A stretch of 64,000 nt of DNA from an uncultured Bacilli bacterium. Its GTDB lineage: Bacteria; Bacillota_I; Bacilli_A; ML615J-28; CAG-313. Both the position numbers and the translations under genes were made by a program. Where the stretch lies: NCBI GenBank assembly GCA_949879765.1, contig CATLBQ010000001.1, positions 1 to 64,000 on the forward strand. The letters are read 5' to 3'. Below, piece after piece: positions 1 to 10,819 of this stretch. Numbering within the stretch: the first letter of the stretch is position 1; each line of letters starts with the position of its first letter. The notes beneath the pieces are model-generated. The model was not told the DNA's origin, made no database searches, and was given only the letters and a program-made list of their open reading frames with translations.

Positions 1-33
1 AAATAATGAAAATTAGAAAGGAAGAAAAAAGAA

Positions 34-2117
34 ATGAAAAGATGTAATCTAAAATATTTGTCTATTTTTTTCGTAATAGTATTGGTGTGTGTAACCAATA
101 CATCATGTAAAAAATGCAAAAAAGAAAATAACATATTAGATAGACCTTCAAATGTTATATTCGATGATAAAGAGATTCTTTCATGGGAAGCAGTTAAAAA
201 CGCAACAGTATATATTGTCTGTGTTGATGATAAGGAATATGTGACAGAGAATACAGCGTATGATTTGTTTAATATATTAAATCAATATAAAACATATAAA
301 ATAGGGATATATGCCAAGGATAAAAGTGGAAAATATTTGGAATCAGATACATTTGAAATGGAGTATGAGGTCAAATCACCATTTGAAATCGAATACAAAA
401 AAATGTAACAGACTATGAAATAATTAAGCAAAAAGCAAGTGATGCAAAAGGTAAGATAATCATACCAGAAAGATATGATGGAAATGAAGTAACAAGAATA
501 GCTAATGCCGCATTTGAAAATTGTACAGGAATTACTGGAGTCATTTTACCAGAAACGATTGACTTTTTGGGTACTTCAGTGTTTAGTAATTGCCAAAGTC
601 TGACAAGAGTAACTTTACCTAGTATGATGACAACAATACCTAATGCGACTTTCAAAGGTTGTATATCACTCATTGATTTTAAAGTTCCAGAGGGTGTACA
701 TCTAATATCTAATCATGCATTTTCAAACTGTACAAATTTAGAGAGTATTTATCTGCCTGCTACATTTGAATTATCTCAAAGTGGGAATTTAAATGCATTT
801 CAAGATTGTCCCAATCTAAAAACAATAATAGTCGATGAAAAGAATCCAGAATATTATAGTGATATGAATTGTTTGATAAAAAGAGGGGATAATACAGTTA
901 TATTAGGAGGTAATGAAGTAACCATTCCTGATGGTATTGACACGATTGGAGAGTATGCTTTTGCGGGGAGAAATATAGAAATGCTTAACCTAACATCAAT
1001 CAAGGTAATAGGTAAGTATGCATTTAGGGGTTGCTCAAGTTTAACAGACATTCAACTTGAAGGAGTAAAATCAATAGGAAGTTTATGCTTTTTTAATTGT
1101 TCTAATTTAACCGCTATTCAACTCAAACAAGTAGAGACGATTAGAGAAAAAGCATTTTCAGCCTGTTTAAACTTAACAGACATTCAACTTGAAGGAGTAA
1201 AATCAATAGGAAGTGAATGTTTTTCCAATTGTTCAAGCTTAGCGGATATTCATCTTGAGGATGTTGAAGCAATCGGTGATTATGCATTTTCTAAATGTAA
1301 AAATTTAAATAATGTATATTTTTTAGAGAAACTAAAAACTATGGGTAAAAATCCATTTATGCAAAGTATGAATGTAAATATAATTATTGACAATACGAAG
1401 TATGGTATGGAAGGGAATTGTTTAATTGACAAAGAAGAACTATCAGTAATTATCGGATTTAATAATAGTGTTATTCCAGATTACATTCTAGAAATAAAAG
1501 ATTATGCATTTAGTTATTGTTCATTTGAAACCATCACATTACCACCACATCTAGAAGTGATTGGTGAATATGCGTTTTATGGCAATGATAAACTGGATTA
1601 TATCACAATACCGAGTTCAGTACAGCTCATAAAAAAGCATGCATTTACTACGCCTAAGCCTAATATTATGAGCGTTATTTTGAATGAATTTACAGGCATA
1701 CTTGAAAACGATGCATTTTATAATCATACAATATATACAACAAGTAGAAGAGAAGAATCAACATTGGGATATGGACATATTCATAGCATCGGTATGGGGT
1801 TAGGTGCAATCTATAATTGTGAATTAAAGGAAGAAAATGAAGAAAAATATGTTTATGCTATAACATTTGAACCACCAAATCCTGAAAATCCAAATATTTT
1901 TTGCCAACCTGATCAGCTTTATAAGATATGTCATAGAGAAGGATATCGATTAGTTGGTTTGAGTAAAGATAAGGATTCAAATCATATAGATGTAAGCATT
2001 CAAGAACTTCATATTGAGGGTGGATATCGTTTTTATGGTTTTATCGGGAAGGACATAAATGATGCCTTTTCTGAGGGAGGAACGCATACACTATATATAG
2101 TATGGGAAAAAGAATAA
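34..2117 (+). pseudogene. BspA-like leucine-rich-repeat lipoprotein, broken by a frameshift
   Basis: Two reading frames form one protein. The first (34-408) has a signal peptide ending at Cys25 (TSC, a weak lipobox) and a fibronectin-III-like segment (residues about 35-110). The second continues without a stop from about 405 to 2117. It carries many BspA-type LRR_5 repeats (pattern AFxxCxxLxxIxLP..V..IG), then a C-terminal Flg_new/InlB-B-repeat-like end (GYRLVGLS..., TLYIVW). The frames meet at an A7 run (397-403); one more A would give a continuous protein of about 694 residues. The downstream part has no start codon with a Shine-Dalgarno site of its own. A purine-rich AGGAAG lies before the ATG at 34. 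Family knowledge: such proteins are surface adhesins. An internal near-perfect 42-bp repeat occurs at 1041-1082 and 1173-1214. It is either a true pseudogene or phase variant, or a homopolymer sequencing error. Confidence 0.85.
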
Positions 2118-2145
2118 AAAAAGGAGAATAGTAATAAGAAAAGTT

Positions 2146-3357
2146 TTGAAATTATTTGTATCGTTTATAGTATTAGTTTTATGTGTCATATTTGGCAATA
2201 AAGTAAAAGCAAGTAGTGATTATACAAGTATATATTTTTATTCAAATAATCAAGAGAATTATAATGCAAGTCAGGGATATATTAGAAAATTGGCACTAGA
2301 TTCTAATATAGGATCAAATAATATTCATATGATATTTGAGCCGTATGATATTTTTGAGGACTATATTTTTTTCCTGCATGACGTTGGTGCATTTAATTAT
2401 AGCAACGCTTTAGTTATTTTTGATATGTCGGCAGGAATAATGGAAAATCGCGGACTCAATATTGAATCAGAATTACATTTTCTGCGTAGACTTAAAATTA
2501 TATTTATGGGATTGAAAGAAGAAAATTGTAAAATAATGTTTATATGTGGTACTCAAGAAATACGATTTTCAACACCAGGTGAGCCAATAAACTCAGAAGG
2601 TAATCTTAATGAATTTTTAGACTATGTGGATATTCATATCAATGTATCACAATTTGAACCATTTTATATGTCAATGATTGTAAAAATAGAAGAAGAAACA
2701 AATGGAAGAGATGCAACACTAATATTTGATGAAAACTCGAAATTATATGATAAAGTTATCGATTATTACCAAAGAAAATATAGAAATGATTATTTTCCTA
2801 TAAAAGAACAATATGATTCTTTTGAAGAATATTTATGTGATTCATGTAATTTTCAAATAATTAGATACAATAATATAGATGAAAGTTTTATTGATTATGA
2901 TGGATTTATATGGTATGATGTATCAGATTTCATTCAAAATAATGTAGTATATGCAATAGGCATGATGAATAATGAATCTTATTTTTTTAACTGGATTGAG
3001 AAAATAAATGATGCAAATACTCAAATGAATTATGCAAAATGGTCGGTATTTGTTTATAATCGACTCAACGTAAATATATCAAATTATAATATTTTGGGTA
3101 CATTATATTATTCACGTGAATATAAATATGAAAGATATAACGTGGAGATGAATTGTGTAATTTACGATTTTATTTATGGAGAAGATTTGACAATTTATGA
3201 TAATCGACAAGGAAGATGTCAAATTACATATAGACCTTTTTCAGGCAGTGGGGAAGACTGGTTGCATGATTTCGAATATGGTGAAGATGGTGATGAAGAA
3301 GTATATGATTTTGGTTATATTTGTATATATGGGCCAGAAGAAGAAATATTGGATTAA
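2146..3357 (+). CDS. Secreted protein of unknown function, uncertain start
   Basis: I do not recognise a family. The N-terminus is a signal peptide (LFVSFIVLVLCVIF, then GNKVKA-S), so the protein is probably exported; the rest is rich in Asp, Glu, Tyr and Asn and ends in an acidic tail. The listed start is a TTG, but the best Shine-Dalgarno (AAGGAG, 2121-2126) lies 19 bases before it. An in-frame ATA at 2134 is 7 bases after that site and would give a more typical signal peptide (xRKVLKLFVSF). Either ATA is used or an ATG was lost. It follows the broken BspA-like gene by 28 bases and is probably co-transcribed with it. A strong terminator follows the stop. Confidence 0.7.
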   Translation: MKLFVSFIVLVLCVIFGNKVKASSDYTSIYFYSNNQENYNASQGYIRKLALDSNIGSNNIHMIFEPYDIFEDYIFFLHDVGAFNYSNALVIFDMSAGIMENRGLNIESELHFLRRLKIIFMGLKEENCKIMFICGTQEIRFSTPGEPINSEGNLNEFLDYVDIHINVSQFEPFYMSMIVKIEEETNGRDATLIFDENSKLYDKVIDYYQRKYRNDYFPIKEQYDSFEEYLCDSCNFQIIRYNNIDESFIDYDGFIWYDVSDFIQNNVVYAIGMMNNESYFFNWIEKINDANTQMNYAKWSVFVYNRLNVNISNYNILGTLYYSREYKYERYNVEMNCVIYDFIYGEDLTIYDNRQGRCQITYRPFSGSGEDWLHDFEYGEDGDEEVYDFGYICIYGPEEEILD

Positions 3358-3389
3358 AGCCCAAATGACATAAGAAAATATACACTCGA

Positions 3390-3437
3390 AAAAAGTGAAA
3401 GACAATTGCCTTCATAGGCAAAATCTTTCACTTTTTC
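3390..3437 (+). terminator. Rho-independent terminator
   Basis: A long hairpin pairs AAAAAAGTGAAAGA with TCTTTCACTTTTTC, with an inner TTGCC/GGCAA stem, and ends in a T-rich tail. It closes the 34-3357 transcription unit. Confidence 0.85.
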
Positions 3438-4780
3438 AATCAATAATCCACTATAATCAGGAGGATTCAAACTAAGCATTTCTGTATAGGATGAGCTAAC
3501 CTTTTTGAAAAAAGTTAAAATATTAGAATTAATTGTGAAAGATAGAAATTGTTACAAGTGTTTCATTTTAATATAATCTAATATTAGAGTTAAGAAATTA
3601 TTGTACAACAAAATATAGTGGTGAATGGTTATATTTATAATTGTCGTATTTAAAATAGTTCATTCAAATTGATAATAATATATTACATAAAGGGAATTTT
3701 ATTGGTATAGGTAAAAATTATTGATTGTTGTCAATATATGGCGATGCTCATTCATTTGTATTGAAAAAGGAAACAATATTGAGACCAAAGTACATTGTCT
3801 GTTGTAGGTAGAATATTCAGTTGAGTTCAAGCCCATACAACTCTTGGGATAAAAAAAGAAAATGATGCTGATATACTTGAGATTAGTCAGAATACACTAG
3901 ATGCTCTATAGCTGACAAAGCAATAGGTGGCATAGTGGATAATATTATGTCAATACAGAAATTATAAAAAGTATGAAATCTGTTTATAATTTTAAATTAA
4001 GTGAAGAAATGTGTATTTGAAAAAAGAATTCTAAAAAAATAAAAATAGAGTTGATGAAATATTACAGGGAAATAGGATATACAAAGAATAAATTTATTTT
4101 ACATTTTGATTGAATCGACAAAAGGGAAAAATTAGATAAAATTGCCAATAATGATTCTATTTTTGCATTGAGCCCAAATTGAGAGTTTACATTATATAAG
4201 AATTACTTTAAAATTAGTAAAACAGGTCATTTGCTTTTAACAAATGACTTGTTATTTTTTAGAAATACTATTCAGACATAGCAGGATGGCATAGTATTTC
4301 TGTATGGTATCTTCAAAAATTTAAATTATATTCTTCGATTTTACATCATATATAATTAACAATTACAGTAAAAAATGAGTCCAATTTTGTCGAAAAATAA
4401 ATGTTTTTTTTCAAATATATAGGAATAGATAGCTTATATTTCATTTTATTGGAAATAAAATGATAGAAAAAAATTATAAAAATTGCTAAATTAAAGGAAA
4501 CTTTGCACTAAAAATGTTAATATTAAAATAATTTTCTATCTTGACAATAATCGACATAGTTTTCAAGGTCATAATATTATAATGTTTTAGTAATAATTAT
4601 ATATATTTTTTAACTTTATGGCTTTAGCCTATATATATAAACTAAAAAATTTATTTTTAATGAAAAAATATAGTAAAAACTAAAATATTTTTGAAAAAGT
4701 CACTCTTTTTACAATTGATTGTCGATTTTAAATTTTGTGAATATATTAATAATAATAGATGTTAAACATATATGGGGGAG
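3438..4780. other. Long AT-rich non-coding stretch with a possible gene remnant
   Basis: No open frame above about 60 codons has a plausible start. Between about 3830 and 4200 short frames read like protein but change phase: 3840-3911 gives TTLGIKKENDADILEISQ..., then from about 3909 the next frame gives ADKAIGGIVDNIMSIQKL, then stops. This looks like a decayed gene whose family I cannot name. The remainder (about 4270-4770) is very AT-rich; I see only a TATAAT at about 4575 and one TTTGTCGAAAA sequence at 4386-4396, neither assignable with confidence. Confidence 0.5.
4224..4260 (+). terminator. Terminator-like hairpin
   Basis: AGGTCATTTG pairs with CAAATGACTT around a TTTTAA-type loop and is followed by GTTATTTTTT. 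It may mark the 3' end of the decayed gene upstream, since no intact gene precedes it. Confidence 0.6.
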
Positions 4781-4787
4781 GTATGTA

Positions 4788-4838
4788 ATGAGGGGAAATT
4801 TAAGACTAAATAGAATTATCAAAAATTTTACTAGCTAG
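4788..4838 (+). CDS. Possible 16-residue leader peptide or gene remnant
   Basis: An ATG at 4788 follows a strong Shine-Dalgarno (GGGGGAGG, 4775-4782) and opens MRGNLRLNRIIKNFTS before TAG. It precedes the lipoprotein gene at 4890. A similar arrangement (GGGGGGAGG, then a short frame without start) lies before the paralogous lipoprotein at 9937. The peptide may be a leader or the remains of a longer gene; the only support is the ribosome binding site and the parallel locus. Confidence 0.25.
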   Translation: MRGNLRLNRIIKNFTS

Positions 4839-4889
4839 ATATCTAGTTATAGGTCTTTTTATTAAAAAAGAAAGGGGAGGAAAGAGAAA

Positions 4890-5420
4890 ATGAAAAAATT
4901 ATTTAGAATGTTGATATGTTTAATGCTTGGACTATGTTTAATGGGGTGTAATATGGGGAAAAAAGTAAGATATAATATCAAATTTTATGAAGAATCAACT
5001 GAAAACGCATTATATCATATAAACAAAGACTATATCGATACTGGTAAAACTTCATATAATGCTGAAATTGTTAAGTCATATGATCAATTATTAGCATTAT
5101 GTGACAAATATAATAGCCCAGCTTTTGATGAAAAAAGTGAAAAGTATTCAAACGAAGTGAATCAACTAATTCGCAGTTTTACAAGGGAATATTTTGAATC
5201 AAAGACGTTGGTATTTTATTTTGGGAATTCTGCAAAAAAGCCTTTTTATGCGGATATTAAATCTATGGTGATTGAAGATAATACATTAATAATCAATTAT
5301 AAAAAGCCTAAAGGAGATACTTGGACAACGGAAATTCGTTCACAACCATGGACTTTAATAATTGAGTTAAATCAAGATGTGGTGTCTAATGTTAATAATG
5401 TTAAAGCAGTAATAAAATAA
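4890..5420 (+). CDS. Lipoprotein, paralogue of the protein at 9937-10428
   Basis: A 176-residue protein with a clear lipoprotein signal (MKKLFRMLICLMLGLCLMGC, lipobox LMGC, Cys20). The mature part has no family I recognise. Its C-terminal half matches the lipoprotein encoded at 9937-10428: YF(E/K)xK(T/A)LV, a central (K)S(M/L)VI(E/D)(D/N)(N/D) segment, and IE(L/I)NQD(V/L)V near the end. It starts at an ATG after AAGGGGAGGAAAG. It lies 14 bases before the subtilase gene, so the two are probably one operon. Location is inferred to be the outer face of the membrane; function unknown. Confidence 0.85.
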   Translation: MKKLFRMLICLMLGLCLMGCNMGKKVRYNIKFYEESTENALYHINKDYIDTGKTSYNAEIVKSYDQLLALCDKYNSPAFDEKSEKYSNEVNQLIRSFTREYFESKTLVFYFGNSAKKPFYADIKSMVIEDNTLIINYKKPKGDTWTTEIRSQPWTLIIELNQDVVSNVNNVKAVIK

Positions 5421-5434
5421 GAAGAGGTGGTTGT

Positions 5435-8400
5435 ATGAAATTAAAAAAATTAAATTTAGCATTTATTGTTGTTTTATTCATACTAGTATCATTTTTTGGA
5501 GAAAAAACATATGCTTTTGCAAATGAATTTATATCAGAAACAAAAGTATATTGTGATGCAACTATAGAAGATGATTTTGCTGAAGATAAAATAATATTGG
5601 TTTTAAATAATAAAGAATCTTTAAGGTTTAAGAACTATGAACTTAATGATTTTTCTGATGTAAATTGTATTGAAATAGAAGATCTAACAGAAAAAACAGG
5701 GGAAATTATTAAGCAACAATTAAAAGCTGAAAAAACAGGAGATTGGTCAGATTTAGAAAGTCGTATAGAAAATGATACATTGGTTAATATCGATAATTTT
5801 CATAGAATTTTATCTTTAACACTAGATGAATCTAATAAGGAGAATGTACTAAAAAAAATTAAGGTATTAGAGGCTAGGCCAGAAATATTATCAGCAGAGC
5901 CTGATTATATTGAAAAATTAAGCCTAGCGAGTAATGATCCATTATATTTAGAAGGTGGTTACAGAGGTCAATGGGCATTAACTGGAACATATGGAATAAA
6001 TGTGAGCAAGGCTTGGAATTTTACAACAGGAAATCCTAATGTGATAGTTGGGGTTATTGATTCTGGAATTGATGGAAAACATCCTGATTTAGTAAATGTA
6101 ATTAATGATGATTTACATCGTGATTATGTTGATACGCCTCTTTTTAGCAGTGTGAGGGTGGTTGATAAAGAAGATTTAGAGGATCTTGATGGACATGGAA
6201 CACATGTTGCAGGAATAATAGGTGCGCAAGGAAATAATGAAATAGGAATTTCTGGTGTTGCTTGGAATATTAGACTAGTTTCGCTTAGGATTTTTAATTC
6301 AAAAGGTTCTGGATATTTATCTGATCTTAAACGGGCTATAGATTTTGCAACGGAGGAATCTATTCCAATATTAAATTATAGTGGTGGGGGTAGTAACGAT
6401 CATAATGGATGTAAAAAGGCTATTGAAAACTATCCTGGATTGTTTGTGTGTGCAGCTGGAAATGATAACCAGGATAATGATTCCCATGGCTATTTTCCTG
6501 GAAATTATAATTTTGATAACCTTATAAGTGTGGGAGCAATAAATATGAATGGTAATAGACCAACTTCTCTTCAATGGGAAGTCGATGACAAAGGAAATCC
6601 ACAAGGTTCTAATTATGGTGCTACTACAGTTGATATTTTTGCACCTGGGGATACTATTGTTAGTACTGTGCCTACTAGCGTTTATCCAAAAGGTTATGTT
6701 CGCTATGAAGGAACATCAATGGCAACTCCACATGTAACTGGTGTTGCAGCATTAATGTTATCAATTAATCCTAATTTAACTCCACAACAGATTAAATATA
6801 CAATTTTAAACAATGTAACTAAATCTTCGAATCTAGATGGCCTTTGCGTATCTGGCGGAAGGTTAGATGCATTTAAAGCCGTTAGTGCAGTTGCCTTTTC
6901 TACAAGTACTGTGAATGACGGAATTTCTATTGATGGATTTATTGATGGTTATTCAGTGGCAAGTCAGACGGATTTGGAAATACCAAGTAGTTTTGCTCAA
7001 GTGAGTGCTAACTATGGAACACCATTACAAAATGTTTGCATGATTGGTAATACTGCATTCAAGGGGAATGAAAATTTAAAAAGTATAATTATGCCAAACA
7101 CAATTACTAGCATAGGTACAAATGCTTTTGAAAATTGTTCAAATTTACAAAGCATAACCTTATCTAATGGCTTAACAAGTATAGGAAATACAGCATTTAA
7201 AGGCTGTTCAAGTTTGGAAGGTATCACAATACCAAATAGTGTTACGAGTATAGGTACAAATGTTTTTGAAAATTGTTTAGATTTACAAAGTATAACCCTA
7301 TCTAATGGTTTAACAAGCATAGGAAATGCAGCATTTAAGGGTTGTTCAAGTCTGGAAGGTATCACAATACCAAATAGTGTTACGAGTATAGGCACAAATG
7401 CTTTTGAAAATTGTTTAGATTTACAAAGTATAACCCTATCTAATGGCTTAACAAGTATAGGAAATGCGGCATTTAAAGGCTGTTCAAGTTTGGAAGGTAT
7501 CACAATACCAAATAGTGTTACAAGCATAGGAAGTGAATTATTCAAAGATTGTTCTAGTCTTGCTAGCATAACCATACCAAATGGTGTAATAAATATTAAT
7601 TCGAGTGCTTTTGAAAATTGTACATATTTGCAAACAGTAGTCTTACCTACAACTTTATATACTATAGGAGCCTCTGCTTTTAAAGGGTGTTCAACCTTAT
7701 CTAGCATAATACTGCCTAGCAGTGTAGAATATGTAGAGGATGAAGCTTTTAAAAATTGTTCATTATTAACACAAGTAGATGTACAAAGAGCAATATCAGA
7801 TATCACTAGCCTTGGATTAAATGTATTTAATGGATGTAGCAATACATTACAAATTATTGTTCCAACCAATCGAGTAGTAGAATACAAGAATAAACCATAT
7901 TGGTCAAGTTATAAAACGAAGATTATACCATCTGGTGAATATACAACATTGGAAATAGATTGTGAAAGTAGTATAAATGAAAGTCTACAACTCAATAGAG
8001 GATATAATCAACTTTATCAACTAAATGTCAATTGTGGAAAAAGTTATCGTATCCATACAAATGCATCAACAGGCGTCACTTTAAAGGTGTATAATGCGAA
8101 TATGGAATATTTGGCAAGTGGTGATGACTTAGTAGATACCTACTTAGGAGTAGGAACATATTATATATCGATAGAATTTAGTAGTTCTTCAGCAGCAGGT
8201 TTAATCGAAACACATTTAGGGTTAAGATGGCCAAGTAGCGATGTGCAATTGAATGATAGCGTAAATAATAATATTAAAACACATATTCATACAACAACAG
8301 ACAATATGAGTCATGGAAAGTTTTATTATTGGAATGAGCAAGGTGCAGGATTCTTCCTATTTAAATTGAGTGGAGTAACAAATGCAAGTTATCTAAAAGA

Positions 8401-9565
8401 TGCAATTACAATCTATGATGATGAAAATAGAACAATCGTGTTAGATAGATATAGTATTGATAATTCTAATTATCCTGCAATTTCCAATGAAGGAGAAAGT
8501 GAAATGTATGTATATTTACCACAAAGAGGTAACTATTACATAGATATCGTTTTGCCAACTAATGGATATACTACATTGAATTTTAGGGTAGAAGAAGTCG
8601 AAAAAAATGATATCAATTATCTAAATCGACTTGAGGGTGTTTGTTTTGACGAAATATTCTTTAATCAAACTACACAAAGTTATTTTGAGGAAGTGACGAT
8701 TAGTCATTATTCAAAAATAGAATATGATATTCAAACAAGTAGAAATATTAATAAGAATATACCAGTCTACATTTTCCAAAAGCAAGTTGATTCAGAAACT
8801 GTTATTGTACCTAAATTAGTAGAAGAAATTACTAAGGCCGATAGAAGTCCAATATTTACAATTATATTAGAGCCTGGAACATATTATATAGGATATTCAG
8901 ATAACTTTGAAGAAGTTGGTATACATATGGGACTAAGAAGAAAAGTAAATATTGATATGAATGTGAATGGAGTACTAGTAACTGATCCAGCTTATCAGCA
9001 ACAATTTAACTTAGGAACAGAAGTTACACTTAACAATGGTGAATTAAGGGGAAATACAATAACAGAAGGATTTACAAGAAACTTGTATTTAATGGTAGAA
9101 GATAGAGTGCATGATCCAATGTCAAGACTTGAATATGATTGGTATTCAAGTAATGAAAATGTAGCGAAAGTTAGTGAATATGGAACTGTACTTGGACTAA
9201 AAGTCAGTGAAGATACAGAAGTGAACATATATGCAATCAATAAAGCAGATCCAACAATTGTGTATAAAATCAAGTTAAAGGTTGTAAAGGACACATCAGT
9301 AGAAGAACTAGACATAGAATGCAATATGAGTTATTCATATTCACAAAAGAATGGTGAATATCAATTGGCATTAGATTTTACAAATAGTCCATATCCATAT
9401 ATTCAATATTATAACTGGGAAGTTATAGGTAAAGATGGAATAAATGTAAGTATAAGCAATTGGGGGATCATCACATCTAGTGGAGTAGGAGAAGCCACAA
9501 TAATAGGTAGTTATGGATTAAATGCAAGAGTAAGACTGATTATCCATTTAACTATTACAGAATAA
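5435..9565 (+). CDS. Subtilisin-like serine protease (S8) fused to BspA leucine-rich repeats
   Basis: A 1376-residue exported protein. In order: signal peptide (about 1-29), a propeptide-like region (about 30-165), and the S8 catalytic domain (about 170-490) with Asp209 (VIDSGID), His254 (DGHGTHVAG), an oxyanion Asn in AAGND, and Ser428 (GTSMATPHV). A BspA-type LRR_5 block follows (about 530-800) and includes three almost identical 46-residue double repeats. Then come pre-peptidase-like beta regions (about 840-1180) and a Big_2-like domain (about 1200-1290; SSNENVAKVSEYGTV). All catalytic residues are present, so an active extracellular protease with a binding stalk is likely. No LPXTG anchor or C-terminal membrane helix is visible. 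RBS is GAAGAGGTGG. The gene follows a lipoprotein gene and ends at a strong terminator. Confidence 0.9.
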   Translation: MKLKKLNLAFIVVLFILVSFFGEKTYAFANEFISETKVYCDATIEDDFAEDKIILVLNNKESLRFKNYELNDFSDVNCIEIEDLTEKTGEIIKQQLKAEKTGDWSDLESRIENDTLVNIDNFHRILSLTLDESNKENVLKKIKVLEARPEILSAEPDYIEKLSLASNDPLYLEGGYRGQWALTGTYGINVSKAWNFTTGNPNVIVGVIDSGIDGKHPDLVNVINDDLHRDYVDTPLFSSVRVVDKEDLEDLDGHGTHVAGIIGAQGNNEIGISGVAWNIRLVSLRIFNSKGSGYLSDLKRAIDFATEESIPILNYSGGGSNDHNGCKKAIENYPGLFVCAAGNDNQDNDSHGYFPGNYNFDNLISVGAINMNGNRPTSLQWEVDDKGNPQGSNYGATTVDIFAPGDTIVSTVPTSVYPKGYVRYEGTSMATPHVTGVAALMLSINPNLTPQQIKYTILNNVTKSSNLDGLCVSGGRLDAFKAVSAVAFSTSTVNDGISIDGFIDGYSVASQTDLEIPSSFAQVSANYGTPLQNVCMIGNTAFKGNENLKSIIMPNTITSIGTNAFENCSNLQSITLSNGLTSIGNTAFKGCSSLEGITIPNSVTSIGTNVFENCLDLQSITLSNGLTSIGNAAFKGCSSLEGITIPNSVTSIGTNAFENCLDLQSITLSNGLTSIGNAAFKGCSSLEGITIPNSVTSIGSELFKDCSSLASITIPNGVININSSAFENCTYLQTVVLPTTLYTIGASAFKGCSTLSSIILPSSVEYVEDEAFKNCSLLTQVDVQRAISDITSLGLNVFNGCSNTLQIIVPTNRVVEYKNKPYWSSYKTKIIPSGEYTTLEIDCESSINESLQLNRGYNQLYQLNVNCGKSYRIHTNASTGVTLKVYNANMEYLASGDDLVDTYLGVGTYYISIEFSSSSAAGLIETHLGLRWPSSDVQLNDSVNNNIKTHIHTTTDNMSHGKFYYWNEQGAGFFLFKLSGVTNASYLKDAITIYDDENRTIVLDRYSIDNSNYPAISNEGESEMYVYLPQRGNYYIDIVLPTNGYTTLNFRVEEVEKNDINYLNRLEGVCFDEIFFNQTTQSYFEEVTISHYSKIEYDIQTSRNINKNIPVYIFQKQVDSETVIVPKLVEEITKADRSPIFTIILEPGTYYIGYSDNFEEVGIHMGLRRKVNIDMNVNGVLVTDPAYQQQFNLGTEVTLNNGELRGNTITEGFTRNLYLMVEDRVHDPMSRLEYDWYSSNENVAKVSEYGTVLGLKVSEDTEVNIYAINKADPTIVYKIKLKVVKDTSVEELDIECNMSYSYSQKNGEYQLALDFTNSPYPYIQYYNWEVIGKDGINVSISNWGIITSSGVGEATIIGSYGLNARVRLIIHLTITE
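7127..7540 (+). repeat. Three tandem 138-bp near-identical repeats inside the subtilase gene
   Basis: Units begin at 7127, 7265 and 7403. Each encodes two 23-residue BspA repeats (FENC...LSNGLTSIGN, FKGC...IPNSVTSIGT). The copies differ by only a few bases, far less than the flanking repeats, indicating recent duplication or gene conversion. The 138-bp period keeps the frame, so unit loss or gain would change repeat number without breaking the gene. Confidence 0.9.
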
Positions 9566-9572
9566 ATGAAAG

Positions 9573-9620
9573 AAGGGTTAGTAAAGCGTATAAACTACAC
9601 TTATACTAACTCTTTTTTTT
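9573..9620 (+). terminator. Terminator of the lipoprotein-subtilase operon
   Basis: AGGGTTAGTA pairs with TACTAACTCT across a loop of about 20 bases, followed by a run of eight Ts. Confidence 0.8.
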
Positions 9621-9658
9621 AAAAAATATATATGTTTAAAGTCTATAGGATAAAATAT

Positions 9659-9687
9659 TTGCAATATTTAGCAATATATGGTATGAT
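9659..9687 (+). promoter_or_regulatory. Sigma-A type promoter for a candidate small RNA
   Basis: TTGCAA (9659-9664), a 17-base spacer, then TATGAT (9682-9687) preceded by TGG (extended -10). No protein gene starts close downstream; a terminator lies about 90 bases on. Confidence 0.6.
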
Positions 9688-9693
9688 ATTGTA

Positions 9694-9783
9694 AAATAGA
9701 TATATTTCTTAAGCCTGCTTTTTATACATTTTTAACACATTGCAATAAAATCTAAAGCTCTCTTAGGGAAGATGGGCTTTTTT
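9694..9783 (+). ncRNA. Candidate small RNA of about 90 nt, family unknown
   Basis: The interval is bounded by a good promoter and a strong terminator: AAAGCTC/GGGCTTT closed by TCTT/AAGA around AGGG (9754-9780), then a T run to 9783. It contains no ATG apart from one inside the terminator stem and no Shine-Dalgarno site. It does not resemble tRNA, the SRP RNA core, or a T-box. It lies alone between the subtilase operon and a degraded lipoprotein gene. Confidence 0.45.
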
Positions 9784-9936
9784 ATTTATATATACTTTAA
9801 ATCTCATAAATAGAATATGTGGACAATAGACTATACAATAGGGGGGAGGAAGCCATATAAGGATAAGTCATTAAAAATAATAATAGAATTATTTGGTGAT
9901 TATGTATATCTTCTAATAAGAAGATATATTATTTAG

Positions 9937-10428
9937 TTTAAGAAAAAGATTAGAATAGGTTTAGTTATAGGGATATTTTCACTTTTATTAGTTGGATGTC
10001 AATCAAATAAAATTAAGTTTAGCGTTAATGAAGTAGATTCTAGTGCAATTGTTGCACCAAATGAAGAGGATATTCCGAACTTATTAAAAGATAACCAGAA
10101 TTTGATTATCTATAAAAGTGTTAATCAATTGGAAGAGAGTTTTAATAAAAAAGAATTAAGTTTTGGCAATCAAGATATTAAAAATAAATATAATCAAGAT
10201 TATTTTAAAAATAAAGCATTAGTAATATTTTATAATGTTGATTCAAGAAGTGGATTTGAATATAAATTTAAATCATTAGTAATTGATAATGATAAATTGG
10301 TTTTAAATATTACCGTTGATGAGGGTAATGAAGGTGCCACTATATTGAGTCCAAGATTATTTTTTATAGAAATTAATCAAGATTTAGTCAAGGACTATGA
10401 TAAAATTGAGTATAAATTGGTTAGCTAA
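9937..10428 (+). pseudogene. Lipoprotein paralogue without a recognisable start codon
   Basis: The frame from 9937 reads xKKKIRIGLVIGIFSLLLVGC, a textbook lipoprotein signal with lipobox LVGC, and stays open to 10428 (163 residues). The expected start position is TTT, directly after an in-frame TAG. The only internal alternatives before the lipobox are ATT (9949) and ATA (9955 and later); the first ATG-type start (10102) would remove the signal. The C-terminal half is homologous to the lipoprotein at 4890-5420. Upstream, 9850-9933 is an in-frame fragment (KDKSLKIIIELFGDYVYLLI) after a GGGGGGAGG site but without a start. It is probably a recently silenced duplicate, or translated weakly from a non-standard start. 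Confidence 0.65.
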
Positions 10429-10523
10429 GATAGAGTAAGATATTTTTAGTGAGTTATGTTGAAGAAGAAAATTACGAGAAAATTAATTGTTAGTCCATAA
10501 AGTCTTTGACAACAAGCCACCTT

Positions 10524-10555
10524 AAAAGTTTCAAAATTTGTTTTGAAACTTTTTT
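10524..10555 (+). terminator. Rho-independent terminator
   Basis: AAAAGTTTCAAAA pairs perfectly with TTTTGAAACTTTT around a 4-base loop, followed by Ts. It closes the lipoprotein unit. Confidence 0.85.
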
Positions 10556-10819
10556 AATTGTTAGTGGATAAAAATATTCTACCATTGTGATATTATTAAA
10601 TATATTGGTAAGTAAAAATATAAATGAAAAATTTTGCTCTAAGTAATAGCTATAGAATGGGTATAATCAAAATAGAAATATCTATTGTTAAAGATGATAA
10701 AAACATCGTTATAAAGTATATAATACATAGGGATGGGGCATGTTGATTGAATTGGCTAGAAAAATAGACCATAGGTATGTGCTATAGTCGTTAAATATGG
10801 GAGTAGAGGGAGAAAAATT
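10556..10819. other. Non-coding upstream region of the Gp37/Gp68-family gene
   Basis: No ORF or clear RNA structure. Promoter-like pieces occur (TTGTTA at about 10686 with TTATAA about 18 bases later; TATAGT at about 10784), but none is compelling. The start at 10820 is preceded by GAGGGAG. Confidence 0.4.

Follow-up and report, generated by a model that had tools for sequence, protein, structure and literature searches.

The window analysed here, a stretch of 64,000 nucleotides starting at base 1 of a 222-kb contig (C1) of a draft genome (1.48 Mb in 32 contigs, 93% complete), raises the question of why an apparent surface protein gene is split at its left end between two reading frames that meet at a run of seven adenines (A7), and whether this split reflects a mutation, an error or a regulatory device. 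The host organism is an Anaeroplasma-like gut bacterium, a relative of mollicutes; the PolC protein of the window is 94% identical in the best segment to that of the Anaeroplasma bactoclasticum MAG NALB_7813_16.

The frame split in the assembled sequence is real. The sequence-only reading had placed the break at the A7 run, and this is confirmed by the comparison of the two frames, which are jointly open over a single region with the run inside it (Table 1); the chance of finding an A7 in a random 22-base stretch of the plus strand of contig C1 is about 1.05%. Downstream of the run, frame 3 is open over positions 387-2114 and ends with a TAA at 2115-2117. It contains no ATG, GTG or TTG between 387 and the first such codon, TTG 567, which is located well within the region of LRR homology, and therefore the second frame is unlikely to be translated alone. 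We surveyed contig C1 for same-strand overlaps between ORFs of at least 60 codons, taken from stop to stop, and found a homopolymer of at least 6 bases in the overlap of 7 out of 66 pairs. In five of these seven, a start codon of the second ORF occurs within the overlap itself or no more than 53 bases beyond it, and one has a second ORF of merely 62 codons, with the first start 97 bases on. The seventh is the A7 pair, in which the second ORF comprises 576 codons and the first start lies 158 bases beyond the overlap.

Table 1. Coordinates of features of the split gene in the window
Feature	Position	Strand	Basis
Shine-Dalgarno-like sequence AAAGGAAG (putative), 9 bases upstream of ATG 34	17..24	+	inference from sequence
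First half, 124 aa	34..408	+	ORF from ATG 34 to TAA 406-408, end three bases past A7
Sole region open in both frames	387..408	+	ORF comparison
A7 homopolymer, frame-offset site	397..403	+	read from sequence
Second half, 571 codons, BspA-type LRR block and C-terminal region	402..2117	+	ORF, PF13306
66-base tandem repeat within LRR block, 3.5 copies, 64% matches	1031..1258	+	repeat search

Comparison with related genomes reveals four homologs in which a signal peptide, an N-terminal domain and a BspA-type LRR block share one uninterrupted frame. Three of them are present in G016, a genome from the same order and another family (83% complete, 6% contamination), and one in G001, a genome of the window's own genus. 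A search of the NALB_7813_16 genome yields match coordinates identical to those in G001, and we regard the two as a single genome. The three G016 proteins match the first half with E-values of 3e-12, 2e-10 and 1e-8 and the second half, up to its C-terminal end, with E-values of 1e-28, 3e-20 and 2e-11; the best match to the second half spans 580 aligned positions, nearly end to end. The G001 homolog (929 aa) matches the first half with an E-value of 0.001 and the second half with an E-value of 4e-34, and one segment of its alignment begins at residue 1 of the second half, directly after the A7 run. Identity to the window gene is about 24-34%, counted over the aligned segments only. Since each homolog carries the two parts without a frame break, these alignments show the split frames of the window to be one gene. 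The proposals that both halves form one protein and that the second frame makes a normal entry into the LRR block after the run are thereby borne out, the same passage being seen in the single-frame homologs.

Five further loci were checked: the one in G001 is a fusion according to BLAST and the one in G007 continues into another domain, while BLAST gave no match at L170, L172 or L173. We did not find a second sequence of the window gene: its own genome contains one copy, a scan of genome contigs with the second half yielded no other, scans of viral contigs with the second half and with a DNA pattern of the junction revealed no relative, and tblastn searches of plasmids with the first half returned no match. 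At the syntenic place in G001 there is no DNA match to window positions 1-3400, and positions 4468-10574 are present in rearranged order. The scanned loci contain 25 LRR-like ORFs, five of which are cut by the 5' edge. Among the other 20, one LRR gene, on the reverse strand of L060 (G014:C6, 447-1789), has no early ATG, overlaps an upstream ORF and looks frame-split; no run in that overlap exceeds A5.

The gene that follows the split gene (to 3357, 407 codons) is preceded by AAGGAG at 2121-2126 and has ATA instead of ATG at 2134, its first usual start being TTG 2146. As read from the sequence of this region (2121-3357), it may have lost its start codon or may use a rare one; no homolog was found in 14 other genomes of the family. 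Further downstream, 1.5 kb of the window (3358-4889) without any ORF of at least 60 codons, but with a terminator-like hairpin at 4221-4253, may be the remains of an old element. Positions 5435-9565, which are in rearranged order in G001, encode a subtilase with a BspA-type LRR block, in which a 138-base tandem repeat (3.1 copies, 92% alike) extends over 7104-7530.

Analysis of the domain composition supports the earlier assignment of the second half to BspA-type LRR proteins: the Pfam family LRR_5 (PF13306) matches it in four stretches with an E-value of 9.2e-79 and a score of 262 bits (cut-off 27.7), and its solved BspA-like relatives include e.g. 4fs7 (E 1e-39). The first half comprises a hydrophobic leader, a candidate lipid-attachment Cys at codon 25 and the N-terminal domain. 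As proposed earlier, the N-terminus resembles that of a surface lipoprotein; the column of the candidate Cys is invariant in alignment A2, and the residues that precede it (NTS) are atypical with respect to the lipobox rule. For the FN3 label given to the N-terminal part we found no profile support. Searches of Pfam with the first half yielded nothing above the cut-off (the best match is CBM_4_9, E 0.026) and no FN3 match at E-values up to 1, nor is there an FN3 chain among the three PDB profile matches at E-values up to 1; the AlphaFold model of the N-terminal part alone has a mean pLDDT of 41 and is too poor for judging the fold. This N-terminal module opens many lipoprotein-like proteins of the family, in which it is mostly followed by other domains. 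We translated 16 N-terminal loci in the family set (L017, L020, L021 and L022 were left out) and 14 in a second set; in family and order, most matches run on in one frame into non-LRR domains, and only three of the 14 loci of the second set, all of them in G016, continue into LRRs. With this predicted architecture, the gene appears to be a lineage-specific surface lipoprotein composed of a signal peptide, the N-terminal domain, a BspA-type LRR block and a short C-terminal region.

The explanation of the split that we prefer, tentatively and at somewhat less than an even chance, is a recent slipped-strand indel at the A7 run, by which the gene became a null or OFF allele with the capacity to revert. 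Slipped-strand mispairing at the run during replication would have offset the reading frame, and translation would then end three bases past the run. The product in the cell would be a lipoprotein stub of 124 aa devoid of the LRR domain, and the downstream LRR frame, having no start site of its own, would be silent. Given that intact relatives exist, the copy in the assembly has the look of a gene turned off or broken only lately, a kind of event that is well known. Since the lesion is located in a homopolymer, it could presumably revert by slippage.

The downstream frame provides an indication of age. Among the 5139 possible substitutions in its 571 codons, 263 (5.1%) create a stop, and the first one is expected after some 20 substitutions (1.1% of sites) or, when transitions alone are considered, after 107 (6.3%). 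No stop and no second frame break is found in these codons, which suggests that the lesion, if real, is recent on the evolutionary scale or that the gene is still under selection. The earlier description of the event as recent is in this way supported indirectly, the frame having remained free of stops though a divergence of 1 to 6% should have brought one. As a test for a pseudogene, a search for further inactivating changes in the 571 codons gave none, a result compatible with a very recent pseudogene.

An assembly or sequencing error at the run, with the real gene being intact, is a rather unlikely alternative to the recent indel. Consensus indels arise most often in homopolymers, but on contig C1 the other 166 A/T tracts of at least 7 bases sit inside open frames, and only one of the 66 overlapping ORF pairs combines a homopolymer with a long second half lacking a start, hence homopolymers are not handled badly throughout this assembly. 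Near contig ends both coverage and consensus tend to be weak, and only 396 bases separate the A7 run from the first base of contig C1; the run is nevertheless fully inside the contig, and no other place in the genome resembles the first 160 bases (the next best match has an E-value of 0.009). In favour of an error, the LRR query detects five genes of the window genome at E 1e-10, and three of them are situated less than 600 bases from a contig end, which indicates that the assembly struggles at LRR genes. Their positions (G000, C1:1, the end of C12 and the start of C15) hint at repeats or strain variation.

Unlikely, too, is the possibility that the A7 run acts as a working on/off switch of the surface protein, the assembled majority being OFF and ON cells being present in the population. 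The gene would be of a suitable kind, since it putatively encodes an LRR-containing surface lipoprotein and belongs to a lineage related to mollicutes. The run, moreover, is located towards the 5' end, 17% of the way along the read-through length, which is the usual position for switching tracts. The genomic background provides little indication of such a role. The 174 ORFs of at least 100 codons on contig C1 contain 121 coding A tracts of at least 7 bases, compared with 147 expected from synonymous shuffles (shuffle range 138-164), and 21 A tracts of at least 8 bases, compared with 55 (46-64); for T tracts of at least 8 bases the corresponding numbers are 6 and 20. Tracts of at least 8 A or T are thus strongly depleted in the coding sequence of this contig, as if selected against. 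A/T tracts of at least 7 bases number 167 in these ORFs, with the A7 of the window included, and occur also in housekeeping genes, of which PolC and peptidase U32 carry A8. These counts indicate that A7 is ordinary and that longer A tracts are avoided, a useful background for judging homopolymer frameshifts in similar MAGs.

Surface genes are not enriched in such tracts either. The 18 ORFs of the lipoprotein-like/LRR class, which is rough and pattern-based, contain 20 A/T tracts of at least 7 bases versus 27 expected, and the 156 other ORFs contain 147 versus 183 expected; the A7 of the window is counted among the latter, because the class pattern missed the first half of the gene. The tracts lean towards the 5' part of the ORFs: when the ORFs are divided into fifths, 54 of the 167 tracts fall into the first and 18 to 41 into each of the others (raw counts). 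No A run longer than 4 is present at the junction of the four intact homologs, thus A7 is not a conserved element of the protein family; one of the G016 homologs (L146:2865-4841) has a T8 run in the junction, so a homopolymer near the junction is not unique to the window gene. The tract is neither longer or commoner than expected in its class nor conserved, as would mark a contingency gene, although the numbers are small, and it lacks the appearance of a switch shaped by selection. Taken in full, as a reversible poly-A switch in a BspA-type LRR lipoprotein of an Anaeroplasma-like gut bacterium with most sampled cells OFF, this proposal is more doubtful still. Elsewhere in the genome, a G7 tract in a second subtilase-type gene (L063, G000:C15, reverse strand base 2418) is a better-looking switch candidate than A7; G7 is rare in this genome, with one occurrence on the plus strand of contig C1.

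It is very improbable that some full-length protein is produced from the split gene by recoding, through either slippage of RNA polymerase or -1 ribosomal frameshifting. The A tract lies directly upstream of the stop codon, and in Citrobacter rodentium transcriptional slippage on an A11 run rescues tssM1 at about 20-25% (PMC4256274). The window gene resembles tssM1 in being interrupted at a poly-A run, but the run is A7 instead of A11, and slippage by the RNA polymerase of E. coli could not be detected on runs shorter than 8 A's (PMC6260861), so that A7 is below the length at which that polymerase slipped. Furthermore, the downstream RNA appears unstructured (fold z 0.46, with 128 of 200 shuffles folding as well), and A7 is not conserved at the junctions of the homologs. 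The zero-frame codons are TAC followed by AAA AAA ATG, and the run is not phased according to the rule for tandem -1 slippage; neither feature of a programmed -1 frameshift site, i.e. a phased slippery heptamer and a downstream structure, is present at A7. That the two open frames, one of them short and complete, represent two separate and normally working genes is hardly credible, as the usual start codons are absent from the second frame upstream of TTG 567, which is inside the LRR homology, and the homologs hold both parts in one frame.

Precedents for tract-length variation in surface protein genes include Vaa, the BspA-like genes of Ca. Mycoplasma girerdii, p78 and inlA. Vaa of M. hominis is ON with 8 adenines and OFF with 7 or 9, switching at 10^-3 to 10^-4 (PMC524362). 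In p78 of M. fermentans and in inlA of Listeria, frameshift alleles are found at 5' poly-A tracts of 6-7, and for the A6 tract of inlA the rate of change is about 10^-7 (PMC2831843), which speaks against a switch at A7. For the BspA-like genes of Ca. M. girerdii, phase variation was counted from metagenomic reads, with the majority often OFF, in tracts that are mostly dinucleotide repeats, homopolymers being only two (PMC5476646), which likewise speaks against a switch at A7. We found nothing in the open-access literature searched that links Anaeroplasma with BspA; Anaeroplasma and phase variation are briefly mentioned together there. If the A7 tract varies, phase variation of BspA-like surface proteins would extend to Anaeroplasma-type gut bacteria, outside mycoplasmas; should the tract instead mark a simple null allele or an error of assembly, the case is ordinary.

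The comparison with known systems can be summarized as follows. The G016 and G001 homologs exhibit the same order of parts as the window gene, but in one continuous frame and with no A run longer than 4 at the junction. In inlA, whose product in Listeria monocytogenes is an LRR protein, and in p78, a one-base change in a short 5' poly-A tract truncates a surface protein, as it would in the window gene, although several alleles were compared there and a single allele represents the window gene. The vaa gene of M. hominis does not encode an LRR protein, and its switching was measured, whereas the window gene is known at one tract length; both, however, are surface protein genes with a 5' poly-A tract, and seven A's is an OFF length in vaa. 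The genes of Ca. M. girerdii contain mostly dinucleotide repeats, with variants counted in reads, as opposed to a single A7 observed in an assembly; they share with the window gene a BspA-type LRR surface protein, a mollicute-related host, truncation by a frameshift in a simple repeat, and an assembled majority that can be OFF.
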